In this document: piece after piece, positions 6,001 to 36,695 of the stretch
Numbering within the stretch: position 1 is the first letter of the stretch
Layout: each line of letters opens with the position of its first letter
Assembly: GCA_028283855.1 (NCBI GenBank)
Contig: JAPWJX010000003.1
Location: 868,001 to 932,000, forward strand
Source of the DNA: Verrucomicrobium sp.
GTDB taxonomy: Bacteria > Verrucomicrobiota > Verrucomicrobiia > Methylacidiphilales > GAS474
DNA length: 64,000 nucleotides
Direction: 5' to 3'
The notes under the pieces: model-generated
Databases searched by the model: none
The model's input: only the letters and a program-made list of their open reading frames with translations
What the model was told of the DNA's origin: nothing
Position numbers and translations under genes: made by a program

Positions 6001-7745
6001 CGCAATCCGCGGGCGGCATCGATGTCCTGAACACCGGGACCATCACGGTGGGCAGCGCCCTGAGCGCCGCCTCCACCGGCACGGTCTACGGCCTTGCCGC
6101 GCAGGCGGCGGGGACGGCCCCGATCAACCTGAGCAACCAGGGCGCCCTGAACGTCTACGGCCGGGGCGGCACCGCCTACGGCATGTATGCCTATTCGGGC
6201 GGCGGCGGCACCATCAGCCTGGTCAACACCGGCACGATCAACGTCGACGGAACCGGCACGCTCTACGGCATGTACGCCAGCTCTACCGGGGCGATCAGCA
6301 TCTACACCAGCGGCAACATCAGCGTGGCTTCCGGCGGCATCGCCATCGCGGCGGGCGGCTCGGTCGATTCCGCGATCACCGTCATCATCAGCGGCTCGCC
6401 GACGATCAACGGCATCATCAACGGCAACACCTCCGTGACGGCGGGCCAGGTCCCGACGTCCAGCTACCTGCAGCTCAATCTCACCGGCATCACCACGGAG
6501 CAGGCCGCCGTGGCCAACGCCTACCTGAAGGACCACCCGAACAGCGGCACCCTGGTCATCAACGGGGCCACCTATTCCTACGAGAACTTCACCGGAGCCG
6601 GGGTGAACACGAACGCCGCCGTGCCGGTGATCAATCCGCAGCTCCAGGACGTGGTGAAGACCATCAGCCGCACCGCCCTGACCGACCTGACCTTCCAGGG
6701 CATCACGCTGGCCAACCGCCTGGACATGGTCCGCATGGGGCTGGCCGGGGGCCGGATCGACTGGAGCGGGCTGAACCTGGTCGACGCCGACGACCCGCTC
6801 CTCTCCCAGGTGGCGGGCCAGCTCTACGCCTTCAACTCCACCATCCCGCAGGAGGCCACCCTGGCCGACGTGCCCGACTATGTGAACGAGATCGAGTTCG
6901 AGAAGCAGCAGCGGTGGGGCGTCTTCCTGACCGGCAACGCGATCCTGGCCAGCCAGAGCGGCAACGCCAGCCAGCCCGACGTCGACGCGACGACCCTCAA
7001 CTTCACCGCAGGCGTCGATTACCGCCTGACGAAGGAGTGGACGCTGGGTCTCTTCGGCTCCTACGGGCGGACCACCGCCAGCCTGGACAGCTACGGCAGC
7101 CGCCTGAGCGAGAACAGCTACCGCATGGGCCCCTACGGCAGCTACACCCATGGCGACTGGTACGTGAACGGCCGCGGCTACTACGGCTTCTCCAGCGCCA
7201 CCTCCCAGTCGGTCCTCCCCGGCACCGGCCTGGTGGCGAACGGCACTCCGGACGGAGACCAATACGGCGTCGCCTTCGACACCGGCTACAAGTTCCACGC
7301 GGGCAACTGGACTTACGGCCCGATCGGCGGGCTCCAATACACCCACATCAATATCAACGGCTACGACCAGACCGGCGCGGGCACGCTTAACCTGACGGTG
7401 GGCGACCAAAAGGTCGACTCTCTCATCGGCAGCCTGGGCGGCCGTGTCGCCTATGACATCAAGACGACGTGGCGGCGGATGATCCTGCGGCCGGAAATCG
7501 ACGTGACCTGGCAGCATGAGATCATGGACGACAACCAGGTGGTCGGCGTGGCCTTCGCCAACAATAGCTCCTCCTCCGTGGTGGTGAACACCGGCCAGCT
7601 CCAGCGGGATTCCGCCGTGGTCGGCGGCGGCCTGAGCGCGGTCTTCGACAACGGTTCCGTCCTCTTCCTGCGCTATGACGCCCAGGTCGGCGTGGACGAT
7701 TACCTGGCCCAAAGCATCACCGGCGGCCTCCGCATCACCTTCTGA
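3..7745 (+). CDS. Giant autotransporter (type V secretion) adhesin-like protein, 5' end missing
   Basis: The frame is open from the left edge, so the true start and signal peptide lie outside; a GTG at 27 is in frame but sits inside a repeat and is not the start. About 2,580 residues are visible. Nearly all are Gly/Ala/Thr/Asn-rich repeats built on 'VTNxGTI' and 'GxAxGI' cores, as expected of a parallel beta-helix passenger exposed at the cell surface. From about residue 2304 (base 6912) the composition changes to alternating aromatic beta-strands ending in ...GGLRITF. This roughly 277-residue C-terminus with a terminal Phe matches the autotransporter beta-barrel (PF03797 type) inserted in the outer membrane. 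A helical linker precedes it around 6640-6760. Ligand and role are unknown; adhesion or aggregation is only a family-based guess. The passenger has no obvious catalytic motif. Confidence 0.88.
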   Translation, partial: NVTVTNTKVGGSAIGITSYNFGGGGSDVENLGATNALTVVANGGGATGISSVNYNGSSLAGATNGQAITVKDIGGGSAIGMTGSPLVNLAGGSITVSATNAGNAYGLYLNGWNGSSLQSNYGTISVQAAGTGESAAFFGFGQSDISNGPVVSLVNQGTLLSSNTGGAAYGIEANKGLNSAYYTGASTVTNGGFIGTASNAIAGVNATGIYLGVSQGSGYVLNQTTGSIIVQDLAGSTQAAYGINLRALSIAGILWASNGGSIVVTGSGAGAYGVAAVNTGSAGTNSVQASNSGTIVVSDTNGGTAVGLYAENEGGAGVRAANYAGGTIQSTGYGIEVVNFTGNNSPVGINYGTITMSGAGTGIYATNAAAGISAYASNAGTITVVDGMGLYSASSGNPAYAQNLAGGVINVTGTGIGVAGINTGAHSVFLTNAGTINAATGATGMAVLNGTTGNASVVNAAGGTVNFTTNGVGIKIVNSTNAPQLLVDNEGSLLAGASNNGTGVLVSNTTSGSAVAVTNGGLIQISDGVGVDVASAGSGSVSNAASGTISVTGSGIGVRAVESASGTLTVTNLGLVAGSGSGAIGLYARNDGSAGASLLNGAGGVVAVSGGGVGMEVANTNGVGPLAATNLGTVTVSNAAGTGILATNTVASASTAVTNAGTINVLAGGVGIGVASTGQITILNTVDGALSVTNGIGIRAYELGDASLAVSNLGAITVAAAGGEAIGIDAESWGLGAVSVLSTNITVSSTGIGGGSVTAVKIVQHSTNNAVQLVFTNSSTVTGTGSDQVVGIDAEGMGTGGVQVVNAAAGAITVSSTGGTVTGIKAYDASAAGAVAVTNDGAIGVTATDGSGAVAIDAENGGLGTISVVNNTDLTVRSLSSGGAVGGATGIRLVQRNAANGNLLSYTNANVITLVETNAAANGYGVVATNQGTGGVSLANTGTITGTNVVTADAAGATLYGLSATNAGGSGAVAVSNGGTISLAAVGAGTSNYGAASVAIDAENRGTGGVSVTNSSVLAVRGAGAGAIGIQAVETGLTGNVAVTNSGTILASDTNGGAAYGIYAKNTGTGDIDILNTGQIGQAGAAITGNGGAGIYASGNGSITLNNQGAIVVAAATGSTNAVYGVSLTTADTAGGDIVITNGAAVNVTGSGAGAVGILAQNTNTTGTGSIFVTNSGALTATDSNGGSAVALSITNMGDGAVTLSNSGTITTASTGSGAVGIEVYAYGAINIVNTGNINSSGAGAYGIYVASAGAGDIQTTSTITINGQTTYGIYVASVDPVRVTNTGSIVASDPGESSVGINSETTGTGGVYLLNTNTVDAIGGGGGAIGIRALDSNTGATALVDVTNTAAVSALDIDGGATIGVYMENAGTGGLLFANSAAITVTSAGATNAGGATGIYLLQSATNNANQIAFTNDNTVTLVETNATAAAYGIQAINKGTGGVLLVNNGTVQGTNTSSVTATNGTLYGLSAYNQGGTGGVAVTNNGTIDLVNEATGANGYGASYGIQALNGGLGYVSAVNLGTIHVQGQGAAGILAYNTNASATGVVSVFNGGTITAEDPGAVSIGIDAENSGTGGVVVISTNAIVSIGGGGGGIGIKAVESGAGGNIVVTNAASISAGDPDGGSALGILAQQAGSGTVGILNTGTISATSAGASAIGIQAGSAGGMVFAENQGTITAADTNGGTARGIALTATGADGAVALNDLGASISVSNGQAVSVVSSNVGGSAVATNFGTISGAGTSDGLALSGAGTLWATNGGTITVTNGAGVTLSHSSATGNSQILNGGVISSSAAGAVLVQGVSAQGAGAGSVLVVNQAGGRIEVAGLGGGADGILVGGSGAGTVVATNLGAVTVLDTNGGVAFGMRAVSSGAGLGSLYNAATLAVTGSGSGTDGAVGLGAFGSDSGAVAATNAGAVTVTNAGAGEAAGLVAQSTGTGQAQAVNAPAGTVTVLGNGGGAAGLRSYGGLSAALVSVTNEGQVAVDDSSAAAVTLYGVDAATQSAGGIDVLNTGTITVGSALSAASTGTVYGLAAQAAGTAPINLSNQGALNVYGRGGTAYGMYAYSGGGGTISLVNTGTINVDGTGTLYGMYASSTGAISIYTSGNISVASGGIAIAAGGSVDSAITVIISGSPTINGIINGNTSVTAGQVPTSSYLQLNLTGITTEQAAVANAYLKDHPNSGTLVINGATYSYENFTGAGVNTNAAVPVINPQLQDVVKTISRTALTDLTFQGITLANRLDMVRMGLAGGRIDWSGLNLVDADDPLLSQVAGQLYAFNSTIPQEATLADVPDYVNEIEFEKQQRWGVFLTGNAILASQSGNASQPDVDATTLNFTAGVDYRLTKEWTLGLFGSYGRTTASLDSYGSRLSENSYRMGPYGSYTHGDWYVNGRGYYGFSSATSQSVLPGTGLVANGTPDGDQYGVAFDTGYKFHAGNWTYGPIGGLQYTHININGYDQTGAGTLNLTVGDQKVDSLIGSLGGRVAYDIKTTWRRMILRPEIDVTWQHEIMDDNQVVGVAFANNSSSSVVVNTGQLQRDSAVVGGGLSAVFDNGSVLFLRYDAQVGVDDYLAQSITGGLRITF

Positions 7746-7914: not shown

Positions 7915-9525
7915 ATGCCTTCCTACCAAGTCTTTGCCCGCAAGTACCGCCCGCAGACCTTCGCGGAGGTGATCGGGCAGGAGCACATCACCCGCAGCCT
8001 GGCCAACGCCATCGCCCAGGGCCGCCTGGCCCAGGCCTATCTCCTGGTCGGCCCCCGGGGCACCGGAAAGACCTCCACCGCCCGCATCATCGCCAAGGCG
8101 CTCAACGTTCCCGGCGGCCCCAAGGTCGATTTCGACCCGAACGACGAAGTCTGCCGGGAGATCGCCGAGGGGCGCTCCCTGGACGTGCTGGAAATCGACG
8201 GCGCCTCCAACAACGGCGTCGAGCAGGTGCGCGATCTGCGGGACAACGTCCGCTTCGCCCCCGTGCGCGGGAACTTCAAGGTCTATATCATCGACGAAGT
8301 CCACATGCTCAGCCAGGCGGCCTTCAACGCCCTGCTGAAGACGCTGGAAGAGCCCCCGGCCCACGTGAAGTTCATCTTCGCCACCACGGAGGCGCACAAG
8401 GTCCCCGCCACCGTCCTCTCCCGCTGCCAGCGCTTCGACTTCCGCCGCATCCCGGACGCCGCCATCGCCGCCCACCTGGCCCATATCTGCCAAAAGGAAG
8501 GGGCCCAGGCGGAGGACGCCGCCCTCCAGGTTATTGCCCGCTATGCCGAAGGCGGCCTGCGCGACGCGGAGGTGGCCCTCGACCAGGTTATCGGCTTCTT
8601 CGGCCAGAACGTCACGGAGGCCGCCGTCCTGGAGATGTTCGGCCTCATCGGCCGGGGCCCGGTCATCGAGCTGGCCCGCGCCATCGCCGCCGGGGACGCG
8701 GGCCGCGTCCTGGAACAGGGCCGCGGCTTGGCCGCCGCCGGGAAGGACCTGGGCAAGCTGGCCGCCGACCTCCTCGGCTTCTTCCGCGATTTCGCCCTCT
8801 GGCAGGCCGCCCCGGCGACTGTCGAGGCCGACTTGACCCCCGCCGAGAAGGCCGCCTTCGCCGAGCTTTCCCAGGCCCTCACGCCGCGCGGCGTCCTGGC
8901 CCTCCTGGAGGAGCTGGCCTTCCTGGAAGGCCGCCTCCGCTACGCGGTGAGCAAGGAAGTCATCTTTGAGGTGGCGCTTCTCCAGCTCTCCCAGCTGCGG
9001 GAAAAGGTTTCCCTGGAAACCCTTCTGCACCAGCTGGCGGGGGAGGGGGCGCCGGCCGTTTCGGTTCCGGCTCCAGCTTCCACGGCGTCGGCCGCCCCGG
9101 CGGCTCCCGCTCCCGCCGCCAACGCGCCCCAAGCTTGGGCGAAGGCCGCCGCCCGTTTCGCCCAGGAGCGCCCGCTGGAAGCTTCCGCCATCCAGACGGC
9201 CCGCTTCGTCACTCTGCGGGGGGACGAGGTCGAAATCGCCCTGCCTTCCAACCTGAAGCATAAGATCGCCGCCTTTTGCGCTCCCCGGAACCTGCCGCTC
9301 CTGGAGGACACGTTGCGGCAGGAGATGGGCCGCCCGGTGAAACTCGTCTTTTTGGCCGGGGATCCGCCGACGGAGGCCGTTGCCGCTCCCGCCGCCGCGG
9401 CAGGCCCGGCCAAGGCCGCCGAACCCGCCGAACCGGCGAAGCTGACGGATAAGGAATTCCTCCACGACCCCCAGATCAAGAAGGCGCTGGAGCTCTTCCA
9501 GGCCCGCGTCGTCTCCGCCAAGTAA
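7915..9525 (+). CDS. dnaX: DNA polymerase III tau/gamma subunit
   Basis: Clamp-loader ATPase of the replicative polymerase, 536 residues. The ATG at 7915 gives the standard MPSYQVFARKYRP N-terminus. Walker A GPRGTGKT is at residues 46-53, Walker B VYIIDEVH at 123-130, sensor FATTEAHK near 155 and the Ser-Arg-Cys motif at 169-171. The zinc module usually found between the P-loop and the 'EIDGAS' segment (four cysteines in E. coli) is absent: a short GPKVDFDPND stretch with a single Cys (C80) replaces it. The C-terminal third has an Ala/Pro-rich linker (about 380-420) and a tau-like domain. The gene starts 16 bases after the SRP RNA, so it probably depends on read-through from that promoter. 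No A-rich slippery site for programmed frameshifting was seen. Confidence 0.95.
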   Translation: MPSYQVFARKYRPQTFAEVIGQEHITRSLANAIAQGRLAQAYLLVGPRGTGKTSTARIIAKALNVPGGPKVDFDPNDEVCREIAEGRSLDVLEIDGASNNGVEQVRDLRDNVRFAPVRGNFKVYIIDEVHMLSQAAFNALLKTLEEPPAHVKFIFATTEAHKVPATVLSRCQRFDFRRIPDAAIAAHLAHICQKEGAQAEDAALQVIARYAEGGLRDAEVALDQVIGFFGQNVTEAAVLEMFGLIGRGPVIELARAIAAGDAGRVLEQGRGLAAAGKDLGKLAADLLGFFRDFALWQAAPATVEADLTPAEKAAFAELSQALTPRGVLALLEELAFLEGRLRYAVSKEVIFEVALLQLSQLREKVSLETLLHQLAGEGAPAVSVPAPASTASAAPAAPAPAANAPQAWAKAAARFAQERPLEASAIQTARFVTLRGDEVEIALPSNLKHKIAAFCAPRNLPLLEDTLRQEMGRPVKLVFLAGDPPTEAVAAPAAAAGPAKAAEPAEPAKLTDKEFLHDPQIKKALELFQARVVSAK

Positions 9526-29497: not shown

Positions 29498-30739
29498 TTA
29501 GCCGACCTTTCGGGCGACGGTGCCCGGCGGGTGGGCGTACCAACCGGGGTCGGCGTAGCTTTCCAGGTTTTCCCGCACCTTGAGCAGGGTGAACATCCCT
29601 CCCATCTGGATGGGGCCGAAGGGCCCTTCCCCCGCCATCATCGGCAGGGTGTTGGCGGGGCCGGGCATGCCCATCTCGGCCATTTCGGCCATGCCGTCCT
29701 TTCCCATCGGCATGTAGCCCGGCAGGAGCCGCTGGAGGTTCCGGACCGCCCCCTGGTCGACGCCGATGAGGTTCGGCAGGTCGTGCCGCATGGCGTTCAT
29801 GGTGTGGTGGGCCTTGTGGCAGTGGAAGGCCCAGTCGCCGGGATTGTCGGCGGTGAACTCGACGGTGCGCGTGGTGCCGACGGGGACGCTGACGGAGGTC
29901 TCCGGCCAGCGGGCGCCGGGCGGGATGGGTCCGGCGTCCGTGGCCGTCACCCAATAGTTGTGGCCGTGGATGTGGAGGGGGTGGCTGTCCATGCTCAGGT
30001 TGGCCAGGCGGATGCGGACGCGCTGGCCCTTGCGCACGACCATCGGCGCGGTGCCGGGATAGGCGCGGCTGTTGAGGGTGAAGAGGTTGAAGTCGGTCAT
30101 CACGTTCGGGTTGGGCGTGAAGGTGCCGGGCTCCACGGCCCATTCCATGAGGAAGAAGGCGAAGTCGCGGTCAGCCGGAGGCTCGGGAGAAGCCTGCGGG
30201 TGGACGATGAAGAAGCCCATCATGCCCAGGGCCATCTGGACCATCTCGTCCGAGTGGGGGTGGTACATGAAGGTGCCGTGCTGCCGCAGGGTGAACTCGT
30301 AGGCGTAGGTCTCCCCCGGCGCGATGTGGGGCTGGGTGAGTCCGCCGACGCCGTCCATGCCGTTGGGGACCAGGAGGCCGTGCCAATGGATCGTCGTCGG
30401 CTCCGGCAGGCGGTTGGTGACCAGGATGCGGACGCGGTCGCCCTCCACCGCCTCCAGGGTGGGGCCGGGAGTCCGGCCGTTGTAGCCCCAGCAGTGGGCC
30501 TTCATGCCGGGGGCGAACTCGTGCTCGACCGGCTCGGCGGTCAGGCGGAAGACTTTCACGCCGTCTTCCCAGGTCCAGGGGAGGGAGGTGCCGTTGAGGG
30601 TCTCGACCGGCACGTGGGGCGCGGGTTCCCCGGCCAGCGCGGCGGCGCGGGCGGGGGGCGTCCTTCCCATCCAGGCCAGGGCGCCCGCCGCGCCGGAAAG
30701 GGCGGCGGCGGACAGGAGGTCGCGGCGGGTCATTTTCAT
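29498..30739 (-). CDS. Tat-exported multicopper oxidase (CopA/laccase-like)
   Basis: 413 residues. A twin-arginine signal (MTRRDLLSAAALSG) sends the folded protein to the periplasm. Copper-ligand motifs are present in order: HWHG (118-121), HPH (160-162), HPLHIHGHNY and HCHKAHHTMNAM. The last block has Cys between histidines as in a type 1 copper site. The C-terminal part is Met-rich (MPMGKDGMAEMAEMGMPG), as in copper-handling oxidases. It likely oxidises Cu(I) or phenolic substrates as a detoxification step. It is the last gene of the metal operon and overlaps the efflux lipoprotein gene by four bases. Length is shorter than CopA of Pseudomonas, which has an extra Met-rich region. Confidence 0.9.
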   Translation of the reverse strand: MKMTRRDLLSAAALSGAAGALAWMGRTPPARAAALAGEPAPHVPVETLNGTSLPWTWEDGVKVFRLTAEPVEHEFAPGMKAHCWGYNGRTPGPTLEAVEGDRVRILVTNRLPEPTTIHWHGLLVPNGMDGVGGLTQPHIAPGETYAYEFTLRQHGTFMYHPHSDEMVQMALGMMGFFIVHPQASPEPPADRDFAFFLMEWAVEPGTFTPNPNVMTDFNLFTLNSRAYPGTAPMVVRKGQRVRIRLANLSMDSHPLHIHGHNYWVTATDAGPIPPGARWPETSVSVPVGTTRTVEFTADNPGDWAFHCHKAHHTMNAMRHDLPNLIGVDQGAVRNLQRLLPGYMPMGKDGMAEMAEMGMPGPANTLPMMAGEGPFGPIQMGGMFTLLKVRENLESYADPGWYAHPPGTVARKVG

Positions 30740-32115
30740 GAGCGGGCTTTCGGGGTGGGGTTCAGGCCGCCGCCCACGGCGGCTTGGAGCCGGGCGCGCT
30801 CGATCCAGTAGTCCCGCTCCAGCTCCAGGGCGCGGCGCTCCGTCTCCGCTTCGGCCCGCCGGGCTTCCAGGAGGTCGTAGGGGCTCTTCAGCATGTAGTT
30901 GTACTGGGCCTGGGAGAGGCGGAGGATTTTTTCCCGCTGGGGCAGGAGGGTGCGGCGGTAGGTTTCGGCCAGCCGCCGCTTGGCCCGCATCGCCGTCCAG
31001 GCCTCCCGTACGGCGGAGGCGGCGTCGACGCGGAGGCGCTCGCGCCGGTCTTCCGCCTGGCGCAGGAGCGCCTCCAGCCGCGCCACGGAGGCCTGGCCCT
31101 GGTCGAAGAGGGGGAGCTGGAGTTCCAGGGTCGGGCCGGTGACGCGGGAGCCGTCCGGGTTGCGCTCCGAGTCGACGCCGACGTTGACGCCCGCGGGCAA
31201 GAGGGCGGTCCCTTTCTTGAGGGAGAGGGCCTTTTCCAGGAGGGCGACGCGGAGGCCTGCCGCTTCCAGGTCGAGCCGCTCGCGCAGGGCCCGCGCTTCC
31301 AGCGCCGTCACGGGAGGATCGGTGGGGGGCAAGGGCGGCAGGGTTTCGGCCATCGTCCAGCCGGTGCGCTCCGGCTCCAGGCCCATGAGGCGGTTGAGGG
31401 CTTCCCGGTCCCGCGCGGCGTCGATCTCCGCCTCGGCCGTCTCGGCGGCGGCCTGCTGGCCGGCGGCGGCGCGCAGGGCGGCGTCCAGCTCGCTGAGCGT
31501 CCCGGCCTTTTCCTGCGCGGCGGCCAGGTCGCCCGCGGCTTCCAGCGTTTCGGCGGCCAGGCGGACGCGCCGGAGCTGCTGGAGGCGGGCCTGGTAGCGG
31601 GCGCTGGCGGCCCGGACGTCGGCGGCGAGCTGGAGGGCCTCGTGGCCGACGCGGGCCTTGGTCTCCGCCAATTCCAGGGACGCCATGCGCTTCTGCAGGG
31701 GCTTCATGAGGAGGTCGAGGAAGTCCTGCGTAACGGCCAGCTCGATATCTCCCGCCAGGGGGGGACGGTCGGGGAAGCGGGCGCTGGCGAAGAAGACGGG
31801 ATTTCTGAGGAGGCCCGCCTGGACGAGGTCGGCCTGGGAGACGCCGATCTCCTCGAAAGCGGCGCGCAGCCCCGGATTGTGCAGGAGGGCGACTTCCACC
31901 GCCGCGTCGGCGGTCAGGGGGCCCGCCAGGAGGCGGGAGAAGGCGGCGTCGGCCCGGCGGTCGTCCGGGCCGCCCTGCTCCCAGGCGATGGGCCGGTCCA
32001 GGCGGGCGGAAACGTCGGCCTCCACCGCGCGGCGGGCGGGAGCGGGATCGACGGAGGCGCAGCCGGCCAGAAGGAAGGCCAGCGCCGCCCCCGCAAGGAG
32101 GGGCATCGCGCGCAT
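30736..32115 (-). CDS. Outer-membrane efflux lipoprotein (TolC/CusC family)
   Basis: 459 residues. A lipoprotein signal with lipobox LLAGC precedes two long alpha-helical repeats typical of outer membrane factors (VEVALLHNPGLRAAFEEIGVSQADLVQAGLLRNP; second copy near EARALRERLDLEAAG). The trimer forms an outer-membrane channel. No pump or adaptor gene lies beside it: neighbours are the Cys-rich protein and the multicopper oxidase. Similar lone TolC-like proteins occur in copper-resistance clusters. It may work with a distant RND pump or have a separate periplasmic copper function. It overlaps the oxidase gene by four bases. Confidence 0.85.
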   Translation of the reverse strand: MRAMPLLAGAALAFLLAGCASVDPAPARRAVEADVSARLDRPIAWEQGGPDDRRADAAFSRLLAGPLTADAAVEVALLHNPGLRAAFEEIGVSQADLVQAGLLRNPVFFASARFPDRPPLAGDIELAVTQDFLDLLMKPLQKRMASLELAETKARVGHEALQLAADVRAASARYQARLQQLRRVRLAAETLEAAGDLAAAQEKAGTLSELDAALRAAAGQQAAAETAEAEIDAARDREALNRLMGLEPERTGWTMAETLPPLPPTDPPVTALEARALRERLDLEAAGLRVALLEKALSLKKGTALLPAGVNVGVDSERNPDGSRVTGPTLELQLPLFDQGQASVARLEALLRQAEDRRERLRVDAASAVREAWTAMRAKRRLAETYRRTLLPQREKILRLSQAQYNYMLKSPYDLLEARRAEAETERRALELERDYWIERARLQAAVGGGLNPTPKARS

Positions 32116-32134: not shown

Positions 32135-32566
32135 TTAGTGGGCGCCGGGGCAGCAGCCGTTGTCCCGGACGCAGCAGGCGGCGGCGGAGACGCAGCACGG
32201 GGCGCGCCCGCCGATGGCCCACGGCGTGGGATGGGGCGTCGCGGCGGCGGCCTGGGCGGCGGCTTCCCGGTCGATCTTTTCCAGCGCGGGCTTCGGGTCG
32301 GCCTTGAACTGGGAGACGCAGCCCTTGCAGCAGAAGCGGACCAGGCGGGCGGTCTCTTTTCCCTTGGCGTCGGTCGTCTTGTAGAGGTAGTCGACGGGTG
32401 TGCCCATCTGCCCGCCGAGCTTTTCCCCGGAAATGGGGCAGGTGGTCAGGGGGTAGGTTTTCTTGAGCGCGTCGATCTGTTCCTGGTCGGTCGGCGCGGC
32501 ATGGGCGGCGGCGAGGGTGAGGAAGGCGCAGAGGCTGCACCAGGCGAGGGTTTTGAGGCGGGTCAT
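32135..32566 (-). CDS. Secreted cysteine-rich metal-binding protein, TRASH-like core with a CC-x5-CC-x5-CC tail
   Basis: 143 residues with a signal peptide (MTRLKTLAWCSLCAFLTLAAAHA). The core TTCPISGEKLGG (C43) and VRFCCKGCVSQFKADP (C79, C80, C83) resembles the TRASH/YHS-type pattern used by copper-binding proteins. After an Ala-rich helix comes a tail with C124-C125, C131-C132, C138-C139 and a terminal His, a strictly periodic CC-x5-CC-x5-CC arrangement. This suggests binding of a soft metal such as Cu(I) in the periplasm. It sits between a TonB-dependent receptor and the efflux lipoprotein in one operon. I know no named family with this tail; the function is inferred. Confidence 0.78.
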   Translation of the reverse strand: MTRLKTLAWCSLCAFLTLAAAHAAPTDQEQIDALKKTYPLTTCPISGEKLGGQMGTPVDYLYKTTDAKGKETARLVRFCCKGCVSQFKADPKPALEKIDREAAAQAAAATPHPTPWAIGGRAPCCVSAAACCVRDNGCCPGAH

Positions 32567-32639
32567 CGTTTTGGGCGGGCGGGGGGTTGCGCCCGTCCAT
32601 GAGGGTAAACGAAATCCCCTCCCCGCGCCCCTCTTCTTT

Positions 32640-34814
32640 TTAGAAAGAGTAGGTGACCCCGGCGTAGAAGGTGCGCCGCGCGCCGTATTCGGCGTTGAAG
32701 ACGCCCACGCCGCTGTCTCCCCGCAGGTAGTAGACCTGGTCGAAGAGGTTCACGATGTCGAAGCGGGCCTTGAGGTTCTTGCAGCCCAGGAAGCCGAAGG
32801 TCTGGGTGAAGCCGATGTTGACGTTGTCGTAGGCGGGGATGCTGTCCCCGTTGGGGATGGTGGAGCCGTCCGCGTAGACGCGGTCGGCGCGCAGGCCGCT
32901 GCCGCAGACGATCTCGACGTAGGGGCGCGTTTCGTTGATGAGGTAGGAGGCGCCGACGGAGCCGGTGAAGGTCTGGTTGTGGTCCAGGTAGATGGAGTTG
33001 GCGTTGATGTAGTTGTAGTCGTCCGCGCTGAAGAGGAGGGATTGGGCGGAGTTGACCCCGGTGCCGCGCGCCTGTTCCACCGCCAGGTTGGCGAAGGCGG
33101 AGAAGCCCTTCTGCTCGTAGGTCTGGCTCAGTTCCACGCCGGTGATTTCCGCGCGGCGGTAGTTGAACTGGGTGAGGATGGGGGCGGCGCCGAACTGGCC
33201 GTCGTCCAGCTGGTTCTGGGCGATCTTGTAGTAGGCGTCGAGGCCGACCTGGTATTCCTTCGTGAAGCGGTGGGTGACGCCGATGTCGAAGTAGTGGTCC
33301 CGCTCCGCCTTGACGGGGTCGTTCGGCAGGCCGTCGGTGGCGGCGTTGTCCGTCCCGGCGAAGAGGGCGGAGGCGGACGGCGGGGCGTTTTCCAGGGAGG
33401 GCGGGGTGAAGTAGCTGGCGTAGCCGGCGTGGAAGGCGGTGTCCGTGTCCAGCTGGTAGGTGCCGTTTATGCGGGGGCTGATCTGGTTCTGGTGGATTTC
33501 CCCGTTTTGGTAGAGGTCGAAGCGGCCGCCGTAGTTGAGGGTCAGCTCCTTGGTGATGCGCCATTCGTCCTGCAGGTAGAAGCCGTACATGTAGGCCGCC
33601 TCGTAGTCGCCCGCGGGGACGCCGAAGGCGCCGCCGGTGGCCGCCCCGGAGCCGTCGACGGGGAAGACGTAGGTGGTGCTGCTCTGCTGCGCTCCCTGGG
33701 CGTCGAGCATCAGGCCGCTGCGCAGGGTGTGGTCGTCCGCCACCTGCCAGCTGCCGTCGAACTGGAGGCCCTGGGACATGAGGCTGCGGTCCTGGCTGCC
33801 GGAGACGCCGTTGACGTAGAGGTTCCCGGTGGTGTCCGGGCGGTAGAAGATGTTGCTGTAGCGGTTGAAGAGGGCCAGCTGGTAGTCAAAGTCCCCGTCC
33901 GTTTTCTGGTAGGCGACGACTTCGTAGTTGTTCTGCTCGTCCTGGGTGTTCTGCAGGCGGGAGGAGTCGACGAAGGCGGGGAGCCCGGGGAAGGGGTTTC
34001 CCGCGCCGTCGGTCGCCGCGGCCTGCCCGGCGGCGCTGGGGATCTGGTAGTGGTTGTAGGATTCCCCGGCCAGGAAGCTGAGGCGGCTGGTCGAGTCGAT
34101 GAGGTAGGAGGCGTAGAGGAAGCCGCGGTATTGGTCGGTGTCGTCGTGGGGGTTGCTGGTGCCGTTGGAGGGGTTTTCGATGCCCATGGTGTTCTGCAGG
34201 TAGCTGCCGGAGACGTAGTAGTCCCATTTTCCCTGCGTGCCGCCGTATTCGAAGCTGGGGCGGGTTGTTTCATGGCTGCCGCCGTACATTTCCACGTCGC
34301 CGCCGGGGTCGAAGGCGCCGCTCTTCGTGTGGATGTCGATGATGCCGGTGGTGCGGAAGCCGTATTGGGCGGGGAGGGAGCCGGTGATGAGGTCGACGCG
34401 GTCGGCGAAGCGGGTGTCGAACTCCGAGCCGAAGCCGGTGATTCCCTCCGGGATGAGGACGTCGTTGATTCGGTATTGGACGTTGCCGTGCTCGTCGCGG
34501 ACGTGGAGCCCGCCGTCGGAGGAGGTGTCCTGCGTCACGCCGGGGAAGCGCAGGAGGAGCTGGTTTAGGGAGACGTTGTCCCCGCGGGACTGGTTCTGGA
34601 TCTGGTCCTGGGTGACGGTGTAGACCGTGGCCCCGGTGTTGGGGACGATCCGCTGCCGGGCCTCGTCCAGCGTGCCGACGACGGTGACCGTCTCCAGCTG
34701 CGGCGCGTTCGTGGGGCTTCCGGCCGCGGCGGCGTCGGCCGGGGCCGCTTCCTGCGCGGCGCGCAGGGCGGGGACCAGGAGGAGGAGGGTGAGAATCGCG
34801 CAAATCGCTTGCAT
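32640..34814 (-). CDS. TonB-dependent outer-membrane receptor heading the metal operon
   Basis: 724 residues from ATG 34814 (a GTG directly before it is also possible). A signal peptide is followed by a TonB box-like ETVTVVG, a plug domain (NQLLLRFPGVTQDTSSDGG, VQYRINDVLIPEG, DRVDLITGSLPAQYG) and a beta-barrel ending in AGVTYSF. Such receptors import scarce metals, metal chelates or other ligands with energy from TonB/ExbBD, a set of which is encoded at 60-61.6 kb. The neighbours (Cys-rich protein, efflux lipoprotein, multicopper oxidase, CnrYXH-like regulators) point to a metal ligand such as copper, nickel or cobalt. The protein itself has no His-rich loops that would settle it. Confidence 0.88.
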   Translation of the reverse strand: MQAICAILTLLLLVPALRAAQEAAPADAAAAGSPTNAPQLETVTVVGTLDEARQRIVPNTGATVYTVTQDQIQNQSRGDNVSLNQLLLRFPGVTQDTSSDGGLHVRDEHGNVQYRINDVLIPEGITGFGSEFDTRFADRVDLITGSLPAQYGFRTTGIIDIHTKSGAFDPGGDVEMYGGSHETTRPSFEYGGTQGKWDYYVSGSYLQNTMGIENPSNGTSNPHDDTDQYRGFLYASYLIDSTSRLSFLAGESYNHYQIPSAAGQAAATDGAGNPFPGLPAFVDSSRLQNTQDEQNNYEVVAYQKTDGDFDYQLALFNRYSNIFYRPDTTGNLYVNGVSGSQDRSLMSQGLQFDGSWQVADDHTLRSGLMLDAQGAQQSSTTYVFPVDGSGAATGGAFGVPAGDYEAAYMYGFYLQDEWRITKELTLNYGGRFDLYQNGEIHQNQISPRINGTYQLDTDTAFHAGYASYFTPPSLENAPPSASALFAGTDNAATDGLPNDPVKAERDHYFDIGVTHRFTKEYQVGLDAYYKIAQNQLDDGQFGAAPILTQFNYRRAEITGVELSQTYEQKGFSAFANLAVEQARGTGVNSAQSLLFSADDYNYINANSIYLDHNQTFTGSVGASYLINETRPYVEIVCGSGLRADRVYADGSTIPNGDSIPAYDNVNIGFTQTFGFLGCKNLKARFDIVNLFDQVYYLRGDSGVGVFNAEYGARRTFYAGVTYSF

Positions 34815-34840
34815 CACGCAGGGTTGGCCACATACAACTT

Positions 34841-34870
34841 ATTTGCAAACAAATATGCAAATGATTTGCG
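34841..34870. promoter_or_regulatory. AT-rich palindromes between the receptor and the sigma-factor operon (candidate Fur-family site)
   Basis: GCAAATGATTTGC (34857-34869) is a perfect 6-1-6 inverted repeat. It overlaps a second perfect repeat, ATTTGCA-N8-TGCAAAT (34841-34862). Both stand out in an otherwise GC-rich sequence and lie where the receptor's promoter must be. The 6/7-1-6/7 form is that of Fur/Zur-type operators; which regulator binds is unknown. Confidence 0.45.
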
Positions 34871-34937
34871 GATTTGTGTGAAAATGAAATGAGGGCTGGG
34901 CTCTTTCTATTCCGTTTATTCCTTTAGAATGCCCTTC

Positions 34938-35210
34938 ATGGATCCTGCACAACTCGATTCCCTCCTGCGGGAGCTGGCGGAAGAATCCGCGCCCGTTCCG
35001 GCCTCTCTTTCCCCCGCCGTCTGGCGGGCCATCCGGCTCCGGCGGGGGGAGGAGGGATGGCTTTCTCTCCTGCGTCCCCGCTTGGCGGCGCTGGCGCTCC
35101 TGGGCGCGGCGGCGTTGGGCGTTCTCACCGCTCTGCCCGTTTCCGGGCCGGACGAGGCGCTGCGGGTTTTTCGGGGGGACGTTTCCGGCTGGATGGGAGG
35201 GGTGCGATGA
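34938..35210 (+). CDS. CnrY-like membrane anti-sigma factor
   Basis: 90 residues from ATG 34938; an ATG at 34929 is in frame and neither has a clear ribosome site. The N-terminal part (MDPAQLDSLLRELAEESAPV...LSPAVWRAIRLRRG) is a short helical cytoplasmic stretch suited to hold a sigma factor, followed by one membrane helix (LAALALLGAAALGVLTALPV) and a short periplasmic tail. Length and topology match CnrY of Cupriavidus (95 residues). It overlaps the CnrX-like gene by four bases. Sequence identity to CnrY is low by eye, so the call depends on position, topology and neighbours. Confidence 0.72.
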   Translation: MDPAQLDSLLRELAEESAPVPASLSPAVWRAIRLRRGEEGWLSLLRPRLAALALLGAAALGVLTALPVSGPDEALRVFRGDVSGWMGGVR

Positions 35211-35647
35211 ATGGGAAGGTTTTCGGGCGCATCGCCCTGCTGCTGGTTTTGGTGGCCCTGGTGGCGGCGGGCAGCGCGTGGCTGACCGGGCGCTGCCAGA
35301 GGGAGGCGGCTTCTGATTCCCACGCCGCCCTGCACCGGCGGCTTCACGTGACCCCGGAGCAGGAGAGGCGGCTGGAGCCGGTGGAGTCCCGCTTTGCCGT
35401 CCAACGGGAAAGCGGCGCGGCGGCCATCGCGGCGGCCAACCGGGAACTGGCCCGCGCGCTGTTGGAGGACCGGGGGGATTCCCCGCGCGTCCGCGCGGCG
35501 GTGGGGAAGATCCACGCCGCCATGGGCGACCTGCAACAGGCGACCTTGGACCACCTCTTCGCCATGAAGGGGGTGCTGACGCCGGAGCAGTATGACGCGC
35601 TGCTCCGGCTGACGGCCTCCGGCCTTTCTTCCTGTTGCGCCCCGTGA
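35207..35647 (+). CDS. CnrX-like periplasmic heavy-metal sensor
   Basis: 146 residues: one N-terminal membrane anchor (IALLLVLVALVAAGSAWL), then a helical periplasmic domain of the Metal_resist/CnrX type. Candidate metal ligands are H39-x3-H43, E60, and H116-x3-M120. Cupriavidus CnrX binds Ni/Co through H42, H46, E63, H119 and M123, so all five are kept with the same spacing, shifted by three. A C-terminal Cys-Cys pair (SSCCAP) is extra. In the known system metal binding to CnrX changes CnrY and frees CnrH. The gene is coupled to both neighbours by four-base overlaps. Ni/Co specificity is an inference; related proteins sense other metals. Confidence 0.82.
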   Translation: MNGKVFGRIALLLVLVALVAAGSAWLTGRCQREAASDSHAALHRRLHVTPEQERRLEPVESRFAVQRESGAAAIAAANRELARALLEDRGDSPRVRAAVGKIHAAMGDLQQATLDHLFAMKGVLTPEQYDALLRLTASGLSSCCAP

Positions 35648-36171
35648 GCGGCGATCCGGACCTGCCCCTGGTCCAGGCCCTCCAGGCGGGCCGGGACGAG
35701 GCGCTCGACCTCCTCATGGAGCGGCACCAGGAGGCGGTCTTCCGCTTCATCCGCCGCTCCGTTTGGAACGAGGCCGACGCGCGGGAGCTGGCGCAGGAAA
35801 CCTTTGTCCGGGCCTACTTCCACATCGGCCGCTTCCGGCCGCGCGCGCCGTTTCTTTCCTGGCTCTTCCGCATCGCGGCGAACCTGTGCCGGGACCGCGC
35901 CCGCAGCAAGGCCTACCGCCAGGCGCGGCGGACCGAAGCCCTGCCGGAAGGCCGGGAGGTGCCCGCCCGCATGGAGGAGGAAAAGCCGGAGCTGGAAGCC
36001 CTCCGCGCGGCGATCGCCGCCCTGCCCGCCGGGCTGCGGGAGCCGCTGGTCCTCACCGCTCTGGAGGGGCTTTCCCAGGAGGAGGCGGGCCGCCGCCTGG
36101 GCCTGAGCGCGCGGGCGGTGGAGAACCGGGCGCGCCGGGCCCGCGCGCGGCTGCTGCGGAGGCTGGGCTGA
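35644..36171 (+). CDS. ECF sigma factor, CnrH-like
   Basis: 175 residues from GTG 35644, overlapping the sensor stop; a TTG at 35635 is an alternative. Region 2 (VWNEADARELAQETFVRAYFHIGRF, FLSWLFRIAANLCRD) and region 4 (IAALPAGLREPLVLTALEGLSQEEAG, ARAVENRARRARARLLRRLG) are both complete, with a charged linker between. It directs RNA polymerase to a small metal-response regulon when released from the membrane anti-sigma factor. The likely targets are its own operon and the divergent receptor operon. CnrH is the best comparison because of the Y-X-H gene order. Confidence 0.88.
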   Translation: MSGDPDLPLVQALQAGRDEALDLLMERHQEAVFRFIRRSVWNEADARELAQETFVRAYFHIGRFRPRAPFLSWLFRIAANLCRDRARSKAYRQARRTEALPEGREVPARMEEEKPELEALRAAIAALPAGLREPLVLTALEGLSQEEAGRRLGLSARAVENRARRARARLLRRLG

Positions 36172-36212: not shown

Positions 36213-36695
36213 ATGACTCCCCTGGGCCGCCGCTTTCTGGTGCTGGGCATCGTCGCCGCCCTGATCGGGACCGGCGTGTGGGGGATGCCCCGGCTGGTGG
36301 AGCGGATGGGGCACGTCCGCTACCGGGAGATGGGCGGGGAGGTGGCCCGGATCCGCGCCGCCCTGGCGGAGGGGCGCGTGCCCTATCCGGCCCGCAGCGG
36401 CCTTCAGACGACGCAGGCGTACCTGGAGCTGCTCATCCGCGCGGGCGTCCTGGCGCCGGGGGACCGGCTCTTCTTCAAGAACTGGCTGGTGGCCAACCTC
36501 GACCCCTCCGATCCTCCGGGCACGGTCTTCCTGGCCACCAAGAGCTGGTACGCCTACACGGCGCTGGGGAAGAAGGACGCGCGGGGCTTCGCCTTCGTCT
36601 GGCTGGACGGGGCGGAGTTGCGCTCCTACGAGCCGCCCGCGCCGGGGCGCGCGCCGCTGCCGCCGCGCAGGCCGGAGCTGCTGCCCTTCGACTAG
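36213..36695 (+). CDS. Membrane-anchored protein of unknown function, pseudopilin-like layout
   Basis: 160 residues from ATG 36213, preceded by GGAAGG. One N-terminal hydrophobic segment (FLVLGIVAALIGTGVWG) is followed by a helix (GEVARIRAALAEG) and a soluble domain with FFKNWLVANLDPSDPPGTVFLATKSWYAYTALG. The layout (short basic start, one membrane helix, extended helix, small globular domain) resembles type II secretion pseudopilins. The GFxxxE prepilin cleavage motif is missing, so it is not called one. It follows the sigma-factor gene by 41 bases and may be co-transcribed. Function is unknown. Confidence 0.68.
   Translation: MTPLGRRFLVLGIVAALIGTGVWGMPRLVERMGHVRYREMGGEVARIRAALAEGRVPYPARSGLQTTQAYLELLIRAGVLAPGDRLFFKNWLVANLDPSDPPGTVFLATKSWYAYTALGKKDARGFAFVWLDGAELRSYEPPAPGRAPLPPRRPELLPFD

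Follow-up and report, generated by a model that had tools for sequence, protein, structure and literature searches.

In the literature we searched, CnrYXH is described as the nickel/cobalt system of Cupriavidus, in which metal bound to CnrX makes CnrY release CnrH (PMC7689651, PMC4598750). A copper response is known for CorE of Myxococcus xanthus (ECF44/ECF238), an ECF sigma factor acting on copper oxidase and ATPase genes, which itself binds copper via a Cys-rich C-terminal extension (PMC10141476). Sphingomonad plasmids carry three-gene units annotated as "hypothetical - periplasmic heavy metal sensor - RNA polymerase sigma factor". We examined by computation such a unit, hereafter the trio (Y, X and H), in a stretch of 64,000 nucleotides from a Verrucomicrobium sp. 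(the window): how it is laid out, what its proteins resemble in sequence and predicted fold, how far its ligands are conserved, and which promoter code it uses and where in the genome this code occurs. Compared with CnrYXH of C. metallidurans, the window trio has the same gene order, overlaps, X fold and five ligands, and its H is closest to CnrH; in contrast, its Y is not detectably similar to CnrY, cnrCBA is missing, the TGAGGG motif of its promoter is absent from the cnr locus, and its predicted output is a multicopper oxidase (MCO) block plus a second copper locus. It shares gene order, ligands, copper setting and promoter type with the sphingomonad plasmid trios, which differ in their -10 element (CGTAWT) and in being flanked by copCD and copAB instead of a set of genes for a YHS-like protein, an outer-membrane protein (OEP) and an MCO. 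The architecture is an ordinary CnrYXH-type one; the copper setting is unexpected and consistent, and the promoter code is clear.

The three genes are coupled in the order Y-X-H and all three frames are intact (Table 1). They overlap by four bases, as the original prediction had it, with ATGA (35207-35210) at the Y/X junction and GTGA (35644-35647) at the X/H junction. Hydropathy gave a single strongly hydrophobic stretch in Y and likewise in X, so that the earlier description of Y as a 90-residue single-helix protein stands as to the helix, but not as to the length, the start being probably ATG 34929 (93 aa). This ATG lies 16 nt past the start of the -10 element, and ATG is found exactly 13 nt past that point in about half of the motif-bearing relatives; we favour 34929 because Y so often starts 13 nt from the -10 element, as in a near-leaderless transcript. 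To judge from this spacing, the Y transcript is probably nearly leaderless. On the same strand, 41 nt 3' of the sigma gene, a 160-aa protein whose family is unknown is encoded at 36213-36695 and is possibly co-transcribed.

Table 1. Features of the window trio and its neighbourhood (positions in the window).
Feature	Position	Strand	Remarks
Multicopper oxidase, TAT-type, probable target	29498..30739	-	Pfam Cu-oxidase domains; conserved at copper trio loci
TolC-type outer-membrane protein (OEP), probable target	30736..32115	-	Pfam OEP; conserved at copper trio loci
YHS-like Cys-rich exported protein, probable target	32135..32566	-	weak YHS match
Predicted sigma-dependent promoter of the YHS-OEP-MCO block	AGAGGG 32634-32629, 17 nt, CGTTTA 32611-32606	-	PWM 12.4
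TonB-dependent receptor	32640..34814	-	neighbour, divergent from trio; probably not a sigma target
Predicted sigma-dependent promoter of the trio	TGAGGG 34890-34895, 17 nt, CGTTTA 34913-34918	+	PWM 21.9
Y, CnrY-like anti-sigma (predicted)	34929..35210 (ATG 34929, 93 aa) or from 34938 (90 aa)	+	one predicted transmembrane helix
X, CnrX-like membrane-anchored periplasmic metal sensor (predicted)	35207..35647	+	146 aa; H39, H43, E60, H116, M120
H, CnrH-like ECF sigma factor	35644..36171	+	175 aa, GTG start

X is homologous to CnrX (phmmer against 3zg1: E = 1.9e-13, X residues 17-136 aligned; 34% identity to Cupriavidus CnrX), and Pfam assigns it to Metal_resist (E = 2.4e-13). In the phmmer alignment H39, H43, E60, H116 and M120 of X fall on H42, H46, E63, H119 and M123 of CnrX. 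An AlphaFold2 model of X, built from a four-sequence alignment (mean pLDDT = 82.7), found only CnrX or NccX as its best PDB matches (to CnrX: VIA-align Z = 11.7, next family 9.6; rmsd 2.4-2.5 A; TM 0.82 of target). Because model residues 38-143 are superposed on CnrX 41-146, the five residues coincide in the model with the CnrX site and would meet in one place, so alignment and modelled register both bear out the five-ligand match to CnrX that had been read from the sequence. X is accordingly modelled as a CnrX-type helical hairpin, membrane-anchored and predicted to be periplasmic. Five ligands of this kind can be filled by copper, since CnrX has been crystallised with it (3epv, by its title).

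The window X also ends in Cys-Cys, for which a possible shift of the metal choice had been suggested; this was not supported, the tail being absent from the nearest relatives, namely the paralogous X of the same genome and the relative in the same-genus genome G001. Just one other homologue has it (SCCP tail), and that homologue, L039, has lost all five ligands, so the tail may be of significance in single lineages and is not a general feature. The L039 homologue (6920-7387), which lies at a copper locus, has K, F, C, T and A in place of the five ligands; with Cys at the E60 position and the Cys-Cys tail, it possibly has a different metal site.

H has sigma70 r2 and r4 domains, is 39% identical to Cupriavidus CnrH, and has CnrH as its best PDB match (4cxf_A, E = 4e-20), with SigE chains close behind (about 1e-19). 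In contrast to CorE, it stops after region 4, with one Cys among its 175 residues, hence no Cys-rich C-terminal extension; a separate membrane sensor is present instead. Y occupies the same position as in other trios and is recognised by a profile of trio Y proteins, a profile that includes the window Y itself. A search of Y against the PDB gave no match, and direct homology to CnrY was sought and could not be demonstrated, the alignment to CnrY being nonsignificant (hhalign E = 0.065, probability 0.8%; 22% identity). We infer the anti-sigma action of Y from its place in the trio.

Relatives of X (E <= 1e-5) occur in 25 of 388 genomes of the phylum and in 73 records of a plasmid collection, mostly from sphingomonads. 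Of the 39 homologues aligned, 29 retain the five ligands, 3 have a partial set and 7 lack the set; the ligand set is therefore a family trait and not a coincidence of the window. The trio and its ligand set are frequent in both Verrucomicrobiota and sphingomonads, and most of the loci concerned are copper loci. In a tree of joined X and H sequences the window trio clusters with those of L046, L008 and L039, all copper loci (SH-aLRT 95), and the nearest trios, with X 57-58% identical to the window X, sit in copper clusters. In marker searches 18 of the 29 loci with all five ligands, that of the window among them, had copper genes nearby (Cu-ATPase, multicopper oxidase, CopB, CopC/D). The other 11 had no recognised copper marker; pumps of the heavy-metal RND or cadmium type occur at several of them, and a TonB receptor in one clade. 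This clade is a single genus (f4 g35; L052, L053, L055, L056), in which a conserved TonB receptor, not related to the one in the window, is encoded 3' of the full-ligand trios on their strand, with no copper genes and no TGAGGG promoter there; in L054 the receptor is present as a fragment only. In sphingomonad plasmids the trio is placed between copCD and copAB.

A second trio, with X 57% identical to the window X, is found on contig C8 of the same genome. It faces a Cu-ATPase gene and then a YHS-OEP-oxidase set, and the window trio faces the TonB gene and then the same set. The C8 locus (L008:98-8797, on a 44-kb contig) is a metal-resistance cluster in which a MerR regulator, a CadA-like ATPase and a CzcCBA-like pump adjoin the trio. 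L008 also encodes, before Y and under the same sigma-type promoter, a small exported protein with an HTDGHxH-type end (L008:10176-10625); a protein of this type likewise precedes Y in L046, past the site at 8873, and a possibly related one lies 3' of the L038:11511 site. No metal RND pump was found beside the trio in the window, and cnrCBA directly adjoins the trio only in Cupriavidus loci. Homology, fold and marker searches thus agree with the original prediction of a CnrYXH-type sensor/anti-sigma/sigma unit far from Cupriavidus and without cnrCBA.

Upstream of Y we found the motif TGAGGG-N16/17-CGTTWA. Of 31 trio upstream regions 20 have it, where shuffled sequences gave 0.1 on average, a count flattering by itself since the motif was derived from these same regions. 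The -35/-10 spacing was always 16 or 17, though it was not fixed in advance and 12 to 19 was searched. A PWM built from the trio-upstream sites was used to scan other genes, and gave sites outside the training set at the C8 copper locus and the G001 locus, in the two arms of each. Among the genes preceded by predicted sites are those for Cu-ATPase, CopA, CopC, CusB-like, YHS and OEP proteins; scores of 21 or more had zero occurrences in 3.84 Mb of shuffled window. In sphingomonad plasmids the sites face copC as well as the trio, with further sites before copA. Another sigma-type promoter, at L060:7911, lies ahead of the gene for a 307-aa protein with a very high content of Met and Gly and some His, which may bind copper in the periplasm. 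The form GAGGG-N16/17-CGTTWA, loosened after the site at 32634 had been seen, was searched by pattern in the 2.56-Mb genome and occurs there exactly five times, twice in the window and three times at the C8 copper locus; these sites stand before each trio operon, the Cu-ATPase gene and both YHS-OEP-oxidase blocks. In four other trio-bearing genomes all exact matches to the strict form (13/13) lie within about 20 kb of trio loci, and six trio-less genomes have 0 to 2 scattered strict-form matches each. We discarded two genome matches to the strict pattern, of which one fell where ribosomal RNA is apparently encoded and the other within a gene. In G001, of the same genus, variation in the -10 part of the sites leaves the strict pattern without a match. 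A scan of the Cupriavidus cnr locus returned no good site of the TGAGGG-N16/17-CGTTWA type; promoter specificity has therefore diverged from that of CnrH.

The oxidase block was earlier proposed to be wired to the trio, and that proposal can be extended, a predicted sigma-type promoter (32634-32606) preceding the YHS-OEP-MCO genes. The site lies between the TonB stop and the YHS start (chance about 6e-4 for that gap), and its placement corresponds to that of the YHS-preceding site in the C8 locus. It scores below the others (12.4), and support for the trio promoter is stronger. Within the genome such sites are found at the two trio loci only, the YHS-OEP-oxidase block among them, which makes this block a likely target of the trio sigma factor on promoter evidence. 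The oxidase is CopA-like by NCBIfam, with a score below the cut-off. YHS homologues occur at copper trio loci L008, L046, L048, L038 and L039. A Cys-rich tail (CCVSAAACCVRDNGCC) extends the YHS-like protein of the window and is absent from its homologues at the other copper loci.

We propose that the trio signals across the envelope as a CnrYXH-type unit belonging to a copper-linked branch, working as follows, and put the probability of this at roughly two in three. Without metal, Y in the inner membrane would hold H. Metal, most likely copper, would fill the five-ligand site of periplasmic X, upon which the XY complex would change shape and H be released, a release mechanism proposed by analogy with CnrYXH. 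Free H would direct RNA polymerase to TGAGGG-N16/17-CGTTWA promoters, namely the trio's own, giving positive feedback, that of the adjoining YHS-OEP-multicopper oxidase block, and those of the Cu-ATPase, the YHS-OEP-oxidase block and the trio at the second copper locus. The trio thus probably senses metal outside the inner membrane and then turns on copper-detoxification genes; genomic context suggests copper as the signal, and the two trios may cross-talk.

A fairly unlikely alternative is that several periplasmic divalent metals (Cu, Ni, Co, Zn, Cd) are sensed, with a general metal-stress output. CnrX has been crystallised with Ni, Co, Zn and Cu (PDB titles), some related trios stand beside Czc/Cad-type genes, and the paralogous trio has the CadA-like ATPase and CzcCBA-like pump as neighbours; the predicted promoters in the genome, however, precede only copper-type genes and trios. 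It is more doubtful that the trio is a nickel/cobalt sensor like CnrX, placed beside copper genes by chance or for cross-protection. The first-shell ligands of X equal those of CnrX and copper selectivity is not visible in the sequence, but no Ni/Co pump adjoins the trio, and copper genes are where its nearest relatives, and the promoters predicted for them, are located. Nickel induces the CopA, CopB and CopC genes of Sphingobium sp. ba1 (PMC5557971), a finding that would speak for nickel; no linkage of those genes to a trio is shown, and we rejected it as support, the gene order differing from that of trio loci. It seems improbable that the trio in the window merely duplicates the paralogous copper locus and is decaying, without a signal of its own: a second trio does exist, the window Y is shorter and has a diverged tail, and the recognition helix of the window sigma factor departs from consensus, yet the three frames are intact, none of the five ligands is lost and the two promoters agree with the code.

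The receptor gene divergent from the trio would fit FecIRA-like cell-surface signalling, with the TonB receptor feeding the sigma factor, but this is very improbable, since a domain search gave the receptor only Plug and barrel domains and no N-terminal signalling domain, gave no FecR match for Y or X, and homologous receptors are unlinked to trios. A full scan found no sigma-type promoter upstream of the window TonB gene, and its homologues stand away from any trio in two related genomes, G001 (64%, 1.6 Mb from the trio) and G399. Upstream of the window gene, TGCAAAT/ATTTGCA-type inverted repeats (7-1-7 spacing) lie at 34833-34870, and similar repeats precede the homologues in G001 and G399; they are likely the operator of another regulator. 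One Fur homologue exists, and a third genomic repeat site does not adjoin any recognisable metal gene. Most likely some other protein controls the receptor gene, which would be a neighbour rather than part of the trio system; the wiring of trio to receptor in the original prediction was not confirmed.

For the family as a whole, we give about even odds to a large CnrX-type branch having switched from Ni/Co to copper across Verrucomicrobiota and sphingomonads, with its five first-shell ligands unchanged and a promoter code of its own, and having been coupled in one verrucomicrobial genus to a TonB receptor instead. If the branch answers to copper, it would be a further control of bacterial copper resistance, beside CueR, CusRS/CopRS and CorE, and it would offer a direct test of a metal switch without change of first-shell ligands. 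The promoter code makes regulons readable from sequence alone.
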